64,000 nucleotides of DNA from Candidatus Gastranaerophilales bacterium. Lineage in GTDB: Bacteria; Cyanobacteriota; Vampirovibrionia; Gastranaerophilales; Gastranaerophilaceae. The stretch is taken from NCBI GenBank assembly GCA_944325735.1, contig CALVBI010000001.1, positions 620,001 through 684,000 on the forward strand. The letters are read 5' to 3'. Both the position numbers and the translations under genes were made by a program. Positions 51,011 to 62,424 of this stretch are shown in pieces (the stretch's first letter is position 1; every line of letters starts with the position of its first letter). The notes under the pieces were generated by a model, which saw only the letters and a list, made by a program, of their open reading frames with translations, searched no databases and was not told where the DNA came from.

Positions 51011-52528
51011 TTATAAATCAACATCAGATTCTTGGATAGGAGCTCCTACAACTCTTTCAAGTTCAGCTGCGTTGATGTTGTAGTTAAGAAGATTTGAATA
51101 ATAATCTAATTGAGCATTCAAATAGCTATTTTCAGCATCTTTAAATTCAATAGCATCTCCAAGTCCGACTTGGTATCTTCTGAATGCTTGGTATTGACGT
51201 TCTTTAGCTTGTTGAAGCGCAAGTTTTGATACATCTATACTATCATGAGAATTTAATAGGCTTATGTATGCACTTTTTACTTCCAAGTAGACGTTTTGTC
51301 TTTGTTGTTCATAATCAGCTACGGCTTTTTTATAAGCAGCTTTAGCTTCATCTACTTGTTTTTTCAATAACATAAGGTTTAGTGCGTTATAGTTTAATTG
51401 GACACCAAATTGATAACCATAATCACTGTCAATTTGTCTTCCTCCCTGATTGTATGAACCGAATGCACTTAAATCAGGAGAAAATGCTCTTTTTGCACTT
51501 CTGATATTTAATTCAGCAGCGTCCATTAATTTCTTAGAAGCTAAAAGTGCTGGTCTTGATTTTTCTGCTGTTTTTAAAAGGTCTTGAAAATTTACATTGT
51601 ATGCTTTTGAATTAAGCTTGTCTTTTAATATGACATTCTCTAATTCCGGAATACCTACAGCATTTGCAAGTTCTGCTGCTGCTAATTCTAATGTGTTTTT
51701 AGCTTTAATTAAATTAACTTTAGCATTTCCTAAGTTATATTCAGCTGTAGTTACATCTATTTTGGCTTTTCTACCGATATCATATTGAGCTTTAGCTTGT
51801 TTTAATTGTAATTCAAAGTCCTTTACAGTATCTTCATATACTGTTTTTTGTATTTCAGCAAATACAAGATTATAATATGCTACTTTTACATTGTATATTA
51901 CTAACTCAATACTTGTTTCAGCATCATATCTTGATGATTCGTAAGTTTTTTGAGCTGAATCTGCCATTGATTTGGTTTTTCCAAAGTCGAATAAAAGCAT
52001 ATTTGCTGAAATTGTCGGCATATAATACATATTATATTTTTGAGCCATCATTCTAGCATATGAGCTTGACATTGTCATAAACATGTCGTTTCTTGAATAG
52101 TTTACACCTGCACTTATTGTTGGGAAGTAATTTGACCAAGCTTGACCTACCATTGTTTTATAGATTTCAGCATTACTAATTGCTGACATAATTGTAGGGT
52201 GGTGAGTAATTGCAAGTTTTATACAGTCGCTTAAAGTGACTTCCCCATTCATTTGAGAATATTCTATTTTACTGTTAATGGCAGGGAATTTTGTCTCGTA
52301 CATTCCTTCTGCTTCTTTAGAAGATTCTTGTTGTGATTTTGCATTATATTTTATTTTTTTTATTTCATGTTTTAAGTTTGTTTTTTCTTTTTCAGGTTTT
52401 ACAATTTCAACTTTTTCTTTTGTTTCTTTTTCTGTTTTATCTTTTTTAAACCATCCTTTTGCAAAAGTTGGGGAGGTTGAAAGTGTAAATATTGAACATA
52501 TTAAAATTACATTTAAAATCTTTTTCAT
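51011..52528 (-). CDS. TolC-family outer membrane efflux protein
   Basis: 505 residues with a signal peptide (MKKILNVILICSIFTLSTSP then TFA). A Lys/Glu-rich linker of about 60 residues precedes the OEP domain, which has LSDCIKLAITHHPTIMSAISN, VKVAYYNLVFAEIQKTVYEDT and, in the second repeat, LEVKSAYISLLNSHDSIDVSK and AENSYLNAQLDYYSNLLNYN. The outer-membrane exit duct of the tripartite pump; its gene lies 6 bases after the RND gene. Confidence 0.93.
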   Translation of the reverse strand: MKKILNVILICSIFTLSTSPTFAKGWFKKDKTEKETKEKVEIVKPEKEKTNLKHEIKKIKYNAKSQQESSKEAEGMYETKFPAINSKIEYSQMNGEVTLSDCIKLAITHHPTIMSAISNAEIYKTMVGQAWSNYFPTISAGVNYSRNDMFMTMSSSYARMMAQKYNMYYMPTISANMLLFDFGKTKSMADSAQKTYESSRYDAETSIELVIYNVKVAYYNLVFAEIQKTVYEDTVKDFELQLKQAKAQYDIGRKAKIDVTTAEYNLGNAKVNLIKAKNTLELAAAELANAVGIPELENVILKDKLNSKAYNVNFQDLLKTAEKSRPALLASKKLMDAAELNIRSAKRAFSPDLSAFGSYNQGGRQIDSDYGYQFGVQLNYNALNLMLLKKQVDEAKAAYKKAVADYEQQRQNVYLEVKSAYISLLNSHDSIDVSKLALQQAKERQYQAFRRYQVGLGDAIEFKDAENSYLNAQLDYYSNLLNYNINAAELERVVGAPIQESDVDL

Positions 52529-52534
52529 TGTATT

Positions 52535-55500
52535 TTATATCTCCAAATCTTTTTCGCTTATTTCTTTTTTAGGGAATAGGTCTACAAATTCTTGAACGAT
52601 TACATAGAATGCTGGAGTAAGAACTGCACCTAATGTACAAGCTGCAATCATACCGCCAAATACTGTAGAACCAACAGAAATTCTTGAATTAGCACCTGCT
52701 CCTGTTGCAAATATCATTGGTAATACCCCGATGATGAATGCTAATTCTGTCATCATAATCGCTCTAAATCTTAATTTCGCAGCTTTTATTGCGGCATCTT
52801 TAACAGACAGACCGTGTTTTTCGTGTTCTTCTTTTGCAAATTCAACAATCAGGATTGATTGTTTTGCTGCAAGACCTATCAATGTGATCATACCAACTTG
52901 TGAATATATATCAAATGATTGGTTAATCATCATTTGGAATATCAACGCACCTAATGCTGCAATTGGAGAAATTAACAATACAGCGATAGGAATTGTGTAA
53001 CTTTCATATAATGCAACCAAGAATAGGTATACAAATACTAAAGCCATACCAACAATCATTGCAGTTTGTCCGGAAGCTTCTCTTTCTTGAGCAGAAGTAC
53101 CTGACCAGTCAAATGTCATATCTGAAGGTAATACTTGTTTTGCAACTTCTTCCATAGCATTCATTGCATCACCGGAACTTTTTCCTTCAGCCTGTTGACC
53201 TTGAATTTGTACTGATTTGTATTGGTTATATCTTGTAATTGATGCTGTACCTACTGTTTGTCTTAATTTTACAATTGATAGTATTGGCACCATTACTCCA
53301 TTGGTATTTTTTACATAAATTCCTGATAAATCAGTTGCTTTGTTTCTAAAATTACTTTCAGCTTGCATTTGAACTTTAAATATTCTGTCATACTTATTAA
53401 AGTCATTTACATAATATGTACCAAGCATTGATGATAGTGTTGCGTATAATTCTTGTAAATCTACGCTTTGAGCTAATGCTTTTTCATAATCTATTTCTAC
53501 GATATATTGAGGTACGTTTGCTTGGAATGATGTAAATACGTTTGATAATGTTGGGTTTTGATTAGCCGCTGATACTAGTTTATTTGCCCAGCTTTCCATT
53601 TCTTGAGGAGTGTATTCTCCTTGAGACAGCATTTGGAATTCAAAACCGCCCATCATACTCATACCATTGATTGCAGGAGGTGAAAAAGCTTGGATAGATG
53701 CTTCTTTAGTATTTGCTGCAACCATTCTTACTTTATTCAAAATTGTTGTATGTGCTAAATCCGTTTCTTCACCTTTGATTTTCTTAGTTATCCATTTTAT
53801 AGGTGTTATTTTTCTATCACCATATTCCAGTAACTGAATAATTACGTTTGCTTGATTAGATCCATCTCCACCAAATACTGTTAATTTTTCAGGGTTAATG
53901 CCTGGAATATCTTTTATTTCATTTACAAATTTTGTTGCTACAGCTTCTGTTCTTGATAATGAAGCTCCATCAGGTAAGGTAATACTTGCAATTAATACCC
54001 CTTGGTCTTCATCAGGGATAAAGCCTGTAGAAATTGTTTTAAAAGATATTAATGTTAAAAGTACTATACCTGCATAAAATATTGCAACAAGTTTTTTGTT
54101 ATATACGAATTTTTTTACGTATTCCATATAAAAATCTTCAACTTTTGCAAACATATCATTAAATTTCACAACAAGTACAGATGTTTTCTTATTTATTCTT
54201 TCAATGATATTTTCAATATGTATTAGGTAAGGGTATTTATTATAATCATGTTCTTTTTTCTCCTGTCCTAAGAAATGTGAACACATAGCAGGTGATAGTG
54301 TTAAAGCACAAATTGCTGAAATTGCAATAGATACAGCGATACATACTGCGAATTGTTTGTACATTACACCTGTCATACCGCCCATAAAAATGATTGGTAC
54401 AAATACTGCCATTAATACAAGAGCCATTGCTACTAATGCAAACCCAACTTCTTCCATTGTCAGTTGTGTTGCAATAATAGCTGATTTGCCTTCTTCCATG
54501 TGTCTTTTTACGTTTTCAATTACAACAATAGCATCATCTACTACAACACCTACTGCAAGAACAAGAGCAAATAAAGATAACAGGTTAATTGTCATCCCAA
54601 ATGCTTTTAAGGCAAAAAATGTACCTATTAATGAAACAGGAATCGTTGCACAAGGAACAAGCGTTGCCATCCCATCTCCTAAGAATAAGAAGATGATTAT
54701 TACAACAATAATTGCTGTTAATAAAATAGTAAATTCAACTTCTTTCATTGATTCGTGAATGAAATCAGCATCATCTTTTACGTATAGAATTTTTATTCCG
54801 TTTGTCATTCTTGAATTCATTTCATTAACTTTAGCTTTTACAGCTTTTGATAAGTTAATTATGTTTGCATCAGGTAATTGTGAAATAACTACAACTGCTG
54901 AAGGTTTACCGTTTACAAGACCTAAGTTAGAATATGATTCTGCTCCTAGTTCTACTCTTGCAACATCTTTAATTTTTACGTTTGAACCGTCCATATTTGA
55001 GCGGATAATTATATTTTCAAATTGTTTTACATCATTTAGTCTGCCAGGGGTTTTTAGTGTGATTTGTAATGCTTGAGGATCATCTGTTGGTAATTGACCT
55101 AATGCTCCAGTTGCTACTTGAGTGTTTTGACTTGTGATAGCATTTTGAATTTCTGTTGTAGAAACGTTTAGTCCAGCCATTTTTTGAGGATCAAGCCATA
55201 TTCTCATAGAATAATTACCGCCCCCAAATACACTTACATCAGCTACACCTTCTACACGTTTTAATTCGTCTTTAATATATATAGATCCATAGTTTGTTAA
55301 GTCAAGTTGTGACCAGTTACCTGATTCAGGATATAGTGTAAGGATTATCGCACCTGAACCTGAAGATCTGCTTATTGCAGTTACACCAGTTCTTTGTACT
55401 TCTTCAGGTAATTGTGATTGTACCCTTTGAATTAAATTTTGTACATTCATTAAGTTAATGTTTTTATCTGTTCCAACTTTAAAGTATATAGTTAAACTAT

Positions 55501-55783
55501 AGCTTCCGTCTGTTGATGTTGAAGACATATAAGTCATATTTTCAACACCGTTTAATTTGTTTTCCAATACGGTTGCAACAGATGATTCAATTACCTCAGC
55601 GCTCGCACCTTGGTATGTCGCAGATACTCTTACTTGAGGAGGCGTAACATCAGGGTAGCTCTCTTGTTTTAAGCTTAATATTGAAATTAAACCTAAAATT
55701 ACAATACATATTGATATTACCAATGCAAAACGAGGTTTTCTTATAAAAAAGAATAACTTTTCTTTGTCAAATATTTTTTTCAT
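52535..55783 (-). CDS. RND multidrug efflux transporter (AcrB/HAE1 type)
   Basis: 1082 residues, full length with twelve membrane helices and two periplasmic loops. HAE1 signatures are the N-terminal [12 protein letters not shown] block, [23 protein letters not shown] (about residue 597), the proton-relay region [17 protein letters not shown] in helix 4 and [15 protein letters not shown] in helix 10. It exports hydrophobic drugs, detergents or bile acids using the proton gradient. In a gut bacterium bile salts are a likely substrate, which is inference. Confidence 0.96.
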
Positions 55784-55812
55784 ACACTATATTTCCTGTT
55801 AAATTATAATTA

Positions 55813-56964
55813 TTATTGAGCTTTTTCTTCTGTTTTTTGTATAGGTTTTAATTTTTGTCCTTCTACTGCGATATTTTGAATACCTGAAAGAACAATTGTA
55901 TCATCAAGATTTAAGCCGCTGTTTACTACCCAGTTGTTATCAATAGCATCTGATACTTTGATATTTTTCTTAACAGCTTTGTTATCTTCTACAGCCCATA
56001 CATAGTACCCGCTCATAGCGTCACCTTTTGTGCTTGCTTGAGGAACTGTCATATATTTAACCAATTTAGGAGCAGTTATTTTAACTTTCATATAAGCTCC
56101 AGGAACTAACCAACCTTTTGTATTATCAAATGTAGCTCTTAATGTTACAGAACCTGAATTTTTATCAATTTTATTATCAACAAAATTTACTTTACCTATT
56201 TTGTCATACCAAGAGCCTCCGTCGAATTGTACTTCAACTTTTGCATCTTTGAATTTGTTACTTGCTTTTAATAGTCTTACAAAGTCATCACTCTTTAAGC
56301 TGAATGTCACAAATACTGGGTTTACACTTGAAATGTTTACTAAAGAACCTGATGTAGCAGTTACGTAATTACCTTCTGTAATATTTACTTTACCTATTCT
56401 TCCGTCAATTGGAGATGTAATTTTTGTATAACCTAGGTTAACTTTTGCTAATTCTAGTTGTTGTCTTGCGGCATCATATAATGCTTTATTTTGGTTTCTA
56501 GCTGCAAGACTTTGATCTACATCAGATCTGCTTATTAAATCTTCTTTTACAAGAGCATTAGCTCTGTTTAATTCTTGTTGAGCATTTTTTAATAATGCAC
56601 TGTATTGATTTACGTTTGCTTGAGAGTTATTTACTTCAATTTGGTATTCTCTAGGATCTATTTGGAATAGAACTTGACCTTTTTTTACAAAGTCACCTTC
56701 TTTAAAATATTTTTTTAATAAAAAGCCTGGTACTCTTGCTACAAGATCTACAGAATATTCTGCTTCTACTCTGCCTGTAGATTCCGCAGATACATTAACT
56801 TCTTCAATATGTGGGGTTCCTACTTCTACTTCTTTGGGCATTAACATTGCTCGTCTTTGTGCGATTGCAGCAATAATTCCAGATGTTTTATTATAAATTA
56901 TTGGCACAATAATTACTGCCAAAATAAGTATTCCCCATTTTTTTCTTGTCATTTGATATTTCAT
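55813..56964 (-). CDS. RND periplasmic adaptor (AcrA/MFP type)
   Basis: 383 residues with an N-terminal membrane anchor (WGILILAVIIVPIIYNKTSG). The order is beta-barrel-like hairpin, lipoyl (biotinyl) halves (ARVPGFLLKKYFKEGDFVKKG and ITSPIDGRIGKVNITEGNYV), a helical hairpin between them, and the membrane-proximal domain ending in GIQNIAVEGQKLKPIQ. First gene of the adaptor-pump-TolC operon, preceded by GGAGAGAG. No repressor gene is adjacent. Confidence 0.95.
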   Translation of the reverse strand: MKYQMTRKKWGILILAVIIVPIIYNKTSGIIAAIAQRRAMLMPKEVEVGTPHIEEVNVSAESTGRVEAEYSVDLVARVPGFLLKKYFKEGDFVKKGQVLFQIDPREYQIEVNNSQANVNQYSALLKNAQQELNRANALVKEDLISRSDVDQSLAARNQNKALYDAARQQLELAKVNLGYTKITSPIDGRIGKVNITEGNYVTATSGSLVNISSVNPVFVTFSLKSDDFVRLLKASNKFKDAKVEVQFDGGSWYDKIGKVNFVDNKIDKNSGSVTLRATFDNTKGWLVPGAYMKVKITAPKLVKYMTVPQASTKGDAMSGYYVWAVEDNKAVKKNIKVSDAIDNNWVVNSGLNLDDTIVLSGIQNIAVEGQKLKPIQKTEEKAQ

Positions 56965-58057: not shown

Positions 58058-58190
58058 AATATCCCTTTCTCGATTATAAATAATTTATATAATATATTTA
58101 TATGTTAAAGAATATTTATTTTTGAATATACAGTATATTATTTCCAGTTTACTAATTTTTTGTATTGTTGATATTTTAAAGAAAAATTAT

Positions 58191-58196
58191 TATAAT
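58191..58196 (+). promoter_or_regulatory. -10 box for leaderless nucleotidyltransferase gene
   Basis: TATAAT ends exactly 6 bases before ATG 58203. This fixes the start at 58203 and rejects an upstream in-frame start at 58122. Confidence 0.5.
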
Positions 58197-58202
58197 AATT
58201 TT

Positions 58203-58859
58203 ATGGAATTTAATATTGAAGATTGGTTACAGGATTTTACAAAAAAATTATTTGATCAATTTAATTCTCGTATAAAGTTTGTAGGCCTTCAGGGTAGTTA
58301 CAAAAGAGGAGAGGCAAACGAGAATAGTGATGTTGATATTGTAATAATTTTAGATAGATTAACTTTTGAAGATTTAGGTGAATATAAAAAAATAGTTCAT
58401 TCTATGCCTTTTTATGAAAAAGTTTGTGGATTTATTTCAGGAGAAAAAGAAATTTATAATTGGCCAAAACATGACCTGTTCCAATTAGTGAATGATACAA
58501 TTCCATTACATGGTAGTTTATTTCATTTTATACCAGCATTAGGCAGAGCAGATATTGTAAATGCTATAAAGATAAATTCTGCTAATTTGTATCATCAAAT
58601 GTGCCATGGATATTTGTTTGAAAACCGTGACATTGAAGTTTTATACCAAGGTTATAAATGTGCATTTTTTATTTTGCAAGCTATTTATTATCTTAAAAAC
58701 TCTGAATATATGGGTTCTAAAAAAGAACTTTTGATGGAGTTGGATGGTGAAGATAAAGAAATTCTACTTATAAATATTAATTGGAATTCCCTAGATATTA
58801 TTGGAAATACTGATTTTTATTTTGAAAAAATTATTAATTGGGCAGGCATGCATATTTAA
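58203..58859 (+). CDS. Nucleotidyltransferase-domain protein
   Basis: 218 residues. The Pol-beta-like motif GLQGSYKRGEANENSDVDIVI (residues 29-49) has the GS and DxD residues for NTP transfer. The C-terminal helical part (about 130-218) resembles the substrate-binding domain of aminoglycoside-type or HEPN-like partners, but no match is claimed. Substrate unknown; not clearly an antibiotic-resistance enzyme. It converges on the MlaA-fusion gene with a 4-base overlap of the ends. Confidence 0.8.
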   Translation: MEFNIEDWLQDFTKKLFDQFNSRIKFVGLQGSYKRGEANENSDVDIVIILDRLTFEDLGEYKKIVHSMPFYEKVCGFISGEKEIYNWPKHDLFQLVNDTIPLHGSLFHFIPALGRADIVNAIKINSANLYHQMCHGYLFENRDIEVLYQGYKCAFFILQAIYYLKNSEYMGSKKELLMELDGEDKEILLININWNSLDIIGNTDFYFEKIINWAGMHI

Positions 58860-60973
58860 TTTTTCGAATTTGCTATTTTGTGTGGAATTTTTATATCTTT
58901 TTTTAATTCATTTATAAATTCGTTAGTATATAAAAATCCAAGATGTGCTCCGTTATTTAAAATTATAGTTTTTTTGCCTGTGCATAGCTTTAACTTTTTT
59001 AATTGGCTATGATTTACTAAATAGTCATCTAAAGAGTGATATATTTTATAATTATTGTTATTTTGCAAATAGTTTGATAAAGATAGGATGCTTGAATCAG
59101 GTCTTAAATCTTCAAGAGTTTTGTAAGTATTACCGAGAACATATTTTTTTACGTAATCCTCATAATTCATATTATAAATTTTTTCATAGATGTCAGTTTT
59201 TTGATTTTTTTTAGTTTGTTCAATTGTAAATATCAAATCAGATAATTTTTGATGCATTACAAAACTTGTAATCAAAAGCCCTTCTTCTTCTGTGAATGGG
59301 AGTGCATTTATGTTAAAATTCTTGTTATCTTCTTTTTTCTCTACAAGTTGGATTACTTTTGCTGCGGTTTTAGCTGCTGTATTTTTTAAATTTTCAGTAT
59401 TTCGATCCCATTTATCAATGCCTTTGTCTACCTGTTCCATAGCATATACAAGTTCAATCGGAGGACAGATTGAGATGTATTTAGTAATGTTCAAAGTATT
59501 ATTTTTATATTCTTTATCGGCTACAAATAAAGTTGTAAGAGCTCCAAATGATGTTCCGATCAAGATTTTTTCTTGGAATTTACAATTATATTTTTTCTCA
59601 AGTTGATTAATAATTTTAGAAGTTACTAATCTTAAGTATTCAGCATCTTCTGCTGGAATTCCTGGAGCATAATTATCAGGCATACTTTTCACGAATTCCC
59701 ATTGAAAATGGCTTCCTTGAATTATTACGGAATACCCTGCATCATAAAATAATTTTGCAAATACAGCAGAATGTTCTGAAACTATCCCTTCCCCAATTGA
59801 CGGGTAGATTATTGCAAGCGGGGAGTTTTTATCTTTTTGCAGAATATATTTGAATTTATAATTTTCTTTTTCAGGAGTAATATTCACAGATGATGTTTTT
59901 ATTTGTTTGGTAAAACATCTGTTCCATATTGACATTTCATTCCAAATGGATTTATCTTTCTCAGGAATATCAAATAAGGCAGTTCGCATGGAATCAACGA
60001 CAGGATTTTGTGGATTGTAGTCAAATAAGAGCATATCTGCCATAAGTTGAGAATTTTCAAGGTTATAACTTTTCAATATAATATTATCAATATTTGTTCC
60101 GCCTTTTAAAATTTCAGCAACTGTGAGTTTTTCTTCGTTATTTATTTCGTTTTTATTCTGTTCTTTTATATCAAGTGTACTTTCATTATTATTAATTTTA
60201 TTATTTGCAATTTCTTCTTGCACGATTTCAAACCCTTTTGCGAGAATTTCCTTTCTATTAAAGTTATTTGATTTAATGTAATTTTCAACGCCATACATTT
60301 TTTTTGCGATATCATAAGGGTCAGCATATGTCGATTCTACCATTTTGATAAGAGGTTGCATTGTGCTTGTTCTGTTGACTGTTAAACCTGCTTTTACCAT
60401 AGCTAATACAGGAGTGCCTACGTATGTTGTCGGGTTTAGTGATGTGTCGAGGATTTTCCCAGCAACACCTCTTGCTGTTGTCCCGTTCATAACAGGTAAT
60501 ACAATGTAAGATCCTGAATTACATTTGCATTTTGTAAGAGCTTGTTCCATATCTTCATTTATGGGCTCAATTTTAAAAATACTTTTTGCTGGATCAAACA
60601 TTCCTCCTAATCCAAGAGTTGTATTTGTAAGAAATCTAGCTGTTTCACTTTTTGTAGTTTTAAAATCTTTTTGGATAAGGCTGCTGACTAATCTTTTGGG
60701 GTATTCTATGTTTTGATAGGCACTTTGAATTCTTTCTATTCCGTATTCAGGCAAAATAGAACACCATAGAATATGTACTGGTCTTATTGCATATTTGTTT
60801 AATCCGAGGTTAAATGCAAAAACTTTTCTATTAAATTTTTCATATTTGTCAGGTCCTAGATATATGTATGAATAATCGGGGATTTTACCTTGTTGTTTAA
60901 TTAATTCTTCACTGTTTGAGATGTTTGTTGTAAGTAGTAAAAGGATTAGAGTTATAAAAATTTTTTTTACCAT
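58856..60973 (-). CDS. MlaA (VacJ) fused to alpha/beta hydrolase
   Basis: 705 residues with a signal peptide (MVKKIFITLILLLLTTNISN). Residues about 30-240 match MlaA/VacJ: YEKFNRKVFAFNLGLNKYAI, ARFLTNTTLGLGGMFDPA and GTPVLAMVKAGLTVN. The lipobox cysteine typical of E. coli MlaA is not seen, so it may be periplasmic or anchored differently. After a linker, the C-terminal half is an alpha/beta hydrolase: nucleophile in LIGTSFGALTTL (serine about residue 474) and a candidate catalytic histidine in NNGAHLGFLYT (about residue 677). It couples phospholipid handling in the outer membrane with a possible lipase or esterase. Confidence 0.85.
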   Translation of the reverse strand: MVKKIFITLILLLLTTNISNSEELIKQQGKIPDYSYIYLGPDKYEKFNRKVFAFNLGLNKYAIRPVHILWCSILPEYGIERIQSAYQNIEYPKRLVSSLIQKDFKTTKSETARFLTNTTLGLGGMFDPAKSIFKIEPINEDMEQALTKCKCNSGSYIVLPVMNGTTARGVAGKILDTSLNPTTYVGTPVLAMVKAGLTVNRTSTMQPLIKMVESTYADPYDIAKKMYGVENYIKSNNFNRKEILAKGFEIVQEEIANNKINNNESTLDIKEQNKNEINNEEKLTVAEILKGGTNIDNIILKSYNLENSQLMADMLLFDYNPQNPVVDSMRTALFDIPEKDKSIWNEMSIWNRCFTKQIKTSSVNITPEKENYKFKYILQKDKNSPLAIIYPSIGEGIVSEHSAVFAKLFYDAGYSVIIQGSHFQWEFVKSMPDNYAPGIPAEDAEYLRLVTSKIINQLEKKYNCKFQEKILIGTSFGALTTLFVADKEYKNNTLNITKYISICPPIELVYAMEQVDKGIDKWDRNTENLKNTAAKTAAKVIQLVEKKEDNKNFNINALPFTEEEGLLITSFVMHQKLSDLIFTIEQTKKNQKTDIYEKIYNMNYEDYVKKYVLGNTYKTLEDLRPDSSILSLSNYLQNNNNYKIYHSLDDYLVNHSQLKKLKLCTGKKTIILNNGAHLGFLYTNEFINELKKDIKIPHKIANSKN

Positions 60974-61682: not shown

Positions 61683-62424
61683 ATGAAAAAGATTAAATTA
61701 CTTGCAAAACTCGGGGGGGGGCAATTTAAGGCTCTTTACACAAGGCTTTACACTTTCAGAGGTCTTAATAACATTAGGGATAATTGGTATAGTTGCAGCA
61801 ATGACTTTACCAAGTTTGATTAATCATTATAGAGATCGGCAAATTCTTTCACAGTTCAATCATGCAGTATCATTATTTTCAAATGCATTTACTCAAATGG
61901 CAAATGATAATGGTGGACAATTAACTAATTTATTTGGACCTTGGAATGATTTTCGTCATTTAGGTCAAGATTTTTATGCTCAATATTTTAAATTGTTAAA
62001 AATGTGTATCCCATATGGTTCGTATAAAGATTGTGTTCCATATAAAATTTATGCCCTAGATAAGACAACTGAGGCTCCTGAAGTTTGCGGGACATATCAT
62101 CATGTTGGAATTTTAGAGAATGGTATGATATTTTGTTTAGGTATGCCAAATCGTCGAGGTGATGGATGGGAAGATAGATTTACTTTATCAGTAGACTTGA
62201 ATGGGGCCCAAAGACCTAATACTTTAGGGTATGATGTGTTTATGTTTTATATAAGTAATACAGGTACACTTAGGAATGTTAAGGATTGGGGTGCCAGTAG
62301 TTGTGATATAAATTTAAAAGGTTCTGGACGTAATGGCTTTAGATGTTCAGAATGGATCCAAAAATACCAAAATGTAGATTATTTACATCATTCTTATCCA
62401 AATTCTTCTAGTATTTGGAGATAG
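61683..62424 (+). pseudogene. Prepilin-like gene, frameshifted at a G9 tract
   Basis: A strong AAGGAG (61671-61676) precedes ATG 61683, which reads MKKIKLLAKLGGG and then leaves the prepilin frame, stopping at 61823 after 46 residues. The prepilin frame runs from inside the G tract to 62424 and reads SGGGNLRLFTQG, FTLSEVLITLGIIG, AAMTLPSLINHYRDRQ and on for a full-length globular part. Removing one G (G8) joins the two into MKKIKLLAKLGGGNLRLFTQG then FTLSEV. The N-terminal leader, cleavage after G and methylated F are then normal. Either phase-variable OFF state or sequencing error. The globular part shares the DLNGAQRPNTLGYDVF block with the prepilin-like gene at 3.7 kb. Confidence 0.75.
61713..61721 (+). 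repeat. G9 homopolymer in prepilin-like gene
   Basis: Nine consecutive G in an AT-rich window; the next longest G runs I see are six (in coaBC and nif3). It lies in codons 11-13 of the prepilin leader, where slippage by one base switches the reading frame. Confidence 0.95.

Follow-up and report, generated by a model that had tools for sequence, protein, structure and literature searches.

The window, that is, the whole 64,000-nucleotide stretch of Candidatus Gastranaerophilales DNA analysed here, encodes an MlaA domain and an alpha/beta hydrolase joined in one polypeptide. Judging from homology, this protein is probably a single-chain, reverse-order counterpart of the MlaZ-MlaY pair that would extract stray phospholipids from the outer leaflet and hydrolyse them on the spot. 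MlaZ of Pseudomonas aeruginosa has been described as an MlaA paralogue with MlaY as its phospholipase partner (PMC11131202, PMC11977310, PMC12569750). It is reported to take mislocalised phospholipids from the outer leaflet and to hand them to MlaY for degradation (PMC11131202, PMC12569750), and loss of MlaY is reported to block the cardiolipin degradation induced by sphingosine (PMC11977310). A previous sequence-only reading had placed an MlaA-alpha/beta hydrolase fusion at this locus without stating its strand; we find one 705-residue open reading frame there, on the minus strand. The gene and its parts are as follows.

58856..60973, minus strand: MlaA-hydrolase fusion gene, complete open reading frame of 705 amino acids plus stop, ATG to stop with zero internal stops
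60911..60973, minus strand: signal peptide, about residues 1-21, with hydrophobic core and no lipobox cysteine (from sequence; cleavage site is an estimate)
60293..60850, minus strand: MlaA domain, residues 42-227 (PF04333, E 2.9e-41)
60044..60256, minus strand: variable charged linker, about residues 240-310 (length variation among relatives, low model confidence)
58889..59941, minus strand: alpha/beta-hydrolase (MlaY-type) domain, about residues 345-695, with a probable helical cap (BLASTP to MlaY, AlphaFold2, fold match)
59549..59551, minus strand: codon of the nucleophile S475 (GTSFG), aligned with MlaY S187
59024..59026, minus strand: codon of the acid D650, aligned with MlaY D388
58943..58945, minus strand: codon of H677 (GAHLG), aligned with MlaY H415

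The N-terminal half matches the Pfam MlaA family with 141.7 bits against a cut-off of 25, and its sole PDB relatives by sequence are solved MlaA chains; it also gave a weak match to the PRK15091 MlaA model. The source assembly has a single MlaA and a single copy of the hydrolase. A hydrophobic N-terminal stretch is found in all 63 relatives compared. A lipobox-like motif occurs in two of them and was not found in the N-terminus of the window protein. Lipoprotein signals are usual in the MlaA family, but as MlaA homologues that are not lipoproteins are known (PMC11131202), the lipobox is not a defining feature of MlaA. The linker measures about 70 residues in the window protein and 23-167 residues among the 63 relatives. 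For the C-terminal half no named hydrolase family scored above cut-off in Pfam or NCBIfam, Abhydrolase_1 being matched weakly over residues 466-681 (19 bits, cut-off 25.8), and sequence searches gave no convincing relatives among solved structures. The GTSFG and C-terminal GAHLG motifs picked out by the sequence-only reading are present, at residues 473-477 and 675-679. On the plus strand, a convergent gene at 58122-58859 with a nucleotidyltransferase-like product (GSYKRGEANENSDVDIVIIL) overlaps the stop of the fusion gene by 4 bases with its own stop, and a prepilin-like protein with the motif GFTLSEVLITLGIIGIVAAMTLPSL is encoded at 61702-62424.

The hydrolase half was identified through its relatives. 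Against 72,556 plasmid records at an E limit of 1 it found four matches only, three from P. aeruginosa and one from Fusobacterium, and in all four a VacJ/MlaA gene directly follows the hydrolase gene. The P. aeruginosa pair corresponds to PA3238-PA3239 (MlaY and MlaZ) by gene order, annotation and catalytic residues: S187, D388 and H415, given as the catalytic residues of MlaY (PMC11977310), coincide exactly with a Ser, an Asp and a His in the translated protein. The BLASTP alignment of the hydrolase half with MlaY covers 357 columns (E 1e-19) and sets these residues on S475, D650 and H677; the Fusobacterium protein aligns with E 2e-18. MlaY proteins are the only relatives found, which points to MlaY as the specific relationship of this hydrolase. 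Identity is only about 21-24%, so the substrate may differ from that of MlaY. We set aside the wording of PMC11977310 that MlaY is "homologous to PldA", as the hydrolase here is an alpha/beta hydrolase with no PldA-type barrel. The kinship with MlaY speaks well for the earlier idea that an extractor of phospholipids and a lipase are joined here; the distinctiveness claimed for such a device does not hold to the same degree, as its two-gene version, MlaYZ, was already known.

The hydrolase half was modeled with AlphaFold2 from an alignment of 33 MlaY relatives, yielding an alpha/beta-hydrolase fold (pLDDT 80.6, pTM 0.84). In the half's own numbering, S176 sits after strand 170-175 and before helix 177-192, D351 follows strand 343-348 and H378 comes just after strand 370-373; in the model the three residues thus occupy the canonical places of an alpha/beta-hydrolase triad. 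Fold matches obtained with Foldseek and VIA-align are alpha/beta-hydrolase esterases, lipases and peptidases, the best being an esterase (Z 20.5, rmsd 3.6 over 246 residues). Between nucleophile and acid, some 130 residues are inserted that are mostly helical and probably form a cap. The full-length model, built from an alignment of only 20 distant rows, reached a pTM of 0.50 and says nothing firm on how the halves face each other.

Of the order's 192 genomes, 93 have the full-length fusion, at identities down to 48% and nearly always as one open frame of approximately 650-830 residues. Across the phylum Cyanobacteriota, MlaA was found in 92 of 386 genomes and an MlaY-type profile, which has the window's own row as one of its 34 and is hence not fully independent of the window protein, hit the same 92 genomes in the same long frames. 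Wherever either half occurs the two are fused, the one exception being a genome (G133) in which they lie on two contigs with the break at residue 335. Ser, Asp and His of the triad are unchanged in 63 of 63 sequences, while the nucleophile elbow reads GTSFG, GTSLG or GTSLA. Between close relatives dN/dS is 0.00-0.12 in both halves, and in most pairs purifying selection is stronger on the MlaA domain than on the hydrolase. Both halves are under purifying selection, and the fusion is real, old and conserved across genera.

Within the window's own genus its distribution is patchy: 17 of 22 sampled genomes have the fusion and five, nearly complete, do not. One stop codon was reported inside the matched stretch in five genomes (G052, G088, G115, G119, G170) and may simply be near the C-terminal end of the match. 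Of 194 phylum members, 87 have photosystem I proteins, and none of those listed from the genus and family of the window does. Neighbors or operon partners of the fusion gene are not conserved across the order beyond a few genera, and no relatives were found in viral contigs. Genes for an RND-type tripartite efflux pump (outer-membrane-protein-like, RND permease and membrane-fusion protein) lie on the minus strand at 51011-56964 of the window. In several genera of the order, RND efflux pump genes are likewise close to the fusion gene, and Skermanella mlaYZ is flanked by genes for an RND permease and a TamB-domain protein.

The genomic setting of the order was examined for other parts of the pathway. 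LpxC is encoded in 191 of 192 order genomes, which makes an LPS-type outer leaflet likely, and such a leaflet has been reported for Melainabacteria (PMC4040986). MCE/MlaD proteins are found in all 192, and genus g10 carries a short gene with an MCE domain some 2 kb away from the fusion (G048:C4, G064:C5, G084:C7). Neither MlaC, for which control matches were obtained in E. coli and Caulobacter, nor PldA was detected in any of the 192 genomes. As about half of the genomes lack the fusion yet have LpxC, it is not indispensable for outer-membrane asymmetry in this order. According to a published survey, diderm Terrabacteria lack MlaABC totally (PMC10665443); the window protein is an exception to that statement. 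By its sequence and genomic company, this MlaA would have no lipid anchor and no need of MlaC.

Outside the phylum, species-level genomes were scanned with the Fusobacterium, Pseudomonas and Skermanella MlaY. At least 505 relatives came to light; the best 80, a selection that may miss rarer or more distant architectures, belong to Fusobacteriota, several classes of Pseudomonadota, Thermodesulfobacteriota and related groups, and a Nitrospirae MAG. Together with the four plasmid loci this gave 84 mlaY loci. An MlaA-family gene lies downstream of mlaY on the same strand in 80 of them, overlapping it or within 60 bases in 79 and 321 bases off in one; two carry both domains in one open reading frame and two hit the contig end just past mlaY. 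The two fused loci (Nitrospirae MAG L120 and Geobacter MAG L137) are hydrolase-first, opposite to the window. With fusions in both domain orders, the MlaA/MlaY pair has been fused more than once. Three Fusobacteriota genomes (L110, L111, L114) have a single MlaA, located beside mlaY, and MlaC was not found in them; MlaC-free MlaA systems may thus extend beyond this order.

In the tree of the MlaA domain the cyanobacterial fused domains come together in a single clade (100/100) with a long stem. MlaA genes beside mlaY share a clade with the two hydrolase-first fusions, separate from the other MlaA paralogues (100/99, and 91/86 when a smaller set was used). The cyanobacterial clade falls outside this MlaZ group in the best tree, and a joint clade was not rejected (p-AU 0.219).

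These data bear on four other explanations. There is next to no chance that a lost stop codon or faulty assembly created the fusion; the sequence-only reading had itself raised the first of these concerns. Nothing was found in favor of an artefact beyond the one genome with the halves on two contigs; the same single open reading frame recurs in more than 90 species-level genomes with both halves under purifying selection, and its presence in nearly half of the order's genomes is explained neither by chance nor by gene calling. We regard it as very improbable that the hydrolase half is an inactive lipid-binding domain. Such a role would fit an elbow that is not strictly GxSxG in every copy, but the constancy of Ser, Asp and His and their places in the model argue against it, and the complete triad, matching that of MlaY, dispels the earlier worry that the hydrolase might lack one.

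The two remaining explanations accept an active enzyme and differ in what it acts on. In the first, the protein would be a lipase, secreted or at the surface, that uses lipids from the environment or a host as food, and the MlaA domain would be no more than its outer-membrane anchor. A signal peptide lacking a lipobox and a patchy presence in the order, as expected of a niche function, would be consistent with this. It is nevertheless quite improbable, as the supposed anchor is in most pairs under stronger purifying selection than the enzyme, and for MlaZ-MlaY pairs outside the phylum the lipids acted on are described as those of the cell itself (PMC11131202). Unlikely, though less so, is an arrangement in which the halves share an anchor and no flow of substrate: the MlaA half would feed MCE/MlaD transporters and the hydrolase would serve a separate editing task, e.g. 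the clearing of lysophospholipids. The ubiquity of MCE/MlaD in the order and the nearby MCE gene in one genus are in its favor. However, MCE proteins are equally present in genomes without the fusion, and the pairing or fusing of the same two families across distant phyla suggests that they have a substrate in common.

Extraction coupled to hydrolysis on one chain is the explanation we prefer. In this model the N-terminal MlaA domain, seated in the outer membrane, would take up phospholipids misplaced in the LPS-containing outer leaflet and pass them to the periplasmic side, where the C-terminal serine hydrolase, held on its tether, would cut the acyl chains, so that the lipid would be destroyed locally instead of being handed over to MlaC and returned to the inner membrane. 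The fusion would do in one place what E. coli does with MlaA-MlaC-MlaFEDB plus PldA. We infer the outer-membrane location, the extraction, the phospholipase activity and the direct hand-over between the halves, with transport and catalysis resting on homology to MlaYZ. We also lean towards the view that this Cyanobacteriota lineage, from a clade reported to be without MlaA, MlaB and MlaC, has a one-protein machine for extracting and destroying phospholipid that would need neither MlaC nor an inner-membrane transporter, and that its fusion arose independently of, and in opposite order to, those of the Nitrospirae and Geobacter MAGs.

In a clade for which MlaABC are stated to be absent, the gene occurs only in combination with a lipase and in no case together with MlaC. 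That unrelated phyla have joined these two families covalently, and in both orders, is gene-fusion evidence for MlaZ and MlaY working as a unit, a view supported so far mainly by Pseudomonas genetics. With both steps on one polypeptide, lipid hand-over from MlaA to lipase becomes testable with one construct and one point mutant.

Compared with known systems, the closest parallel is MlaYZ of P. aeruginosa (PA3238 lipase, PA3239), which likewise couples an MlaA-family protein to an alpha/beta hydrolase with the same Ser-Asp-His triad. There, however, the two are separate genes with the lipase first, whereas the window protein is one polypeptide with the MlaA domain first, and P. aeruginosa genomes have a second MlaA and MlaC, both missing from the window's order. 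The Fusobacterium mlaY-mlaA pair resembles the order in having one MlaA per genome, coupled to mlaY, and no MlaC, but consists of separate genes, lipase first, with a lipobox in MlaA. The Nitrospirae and Geobacter fusions also hold both domains in one open reading frame; they differ in their opposite domain order and in the MlaC present in both genomes, unlike in the window's order, and are an independent fusion. Canonical E. coli MlaA belongs to the same Pfam family as the window's MlaA half, yet it is a lipoprotein without a hydrolase and hands its lipid to MlaC, which the window's order lacks. Finally, PldA (OMPLA) destroys mislocalised outer-leaflet phospholipid, as proposed for the fusion, although it is a beta-barrel enzyme of an unrelated family that is absent from the window's order.
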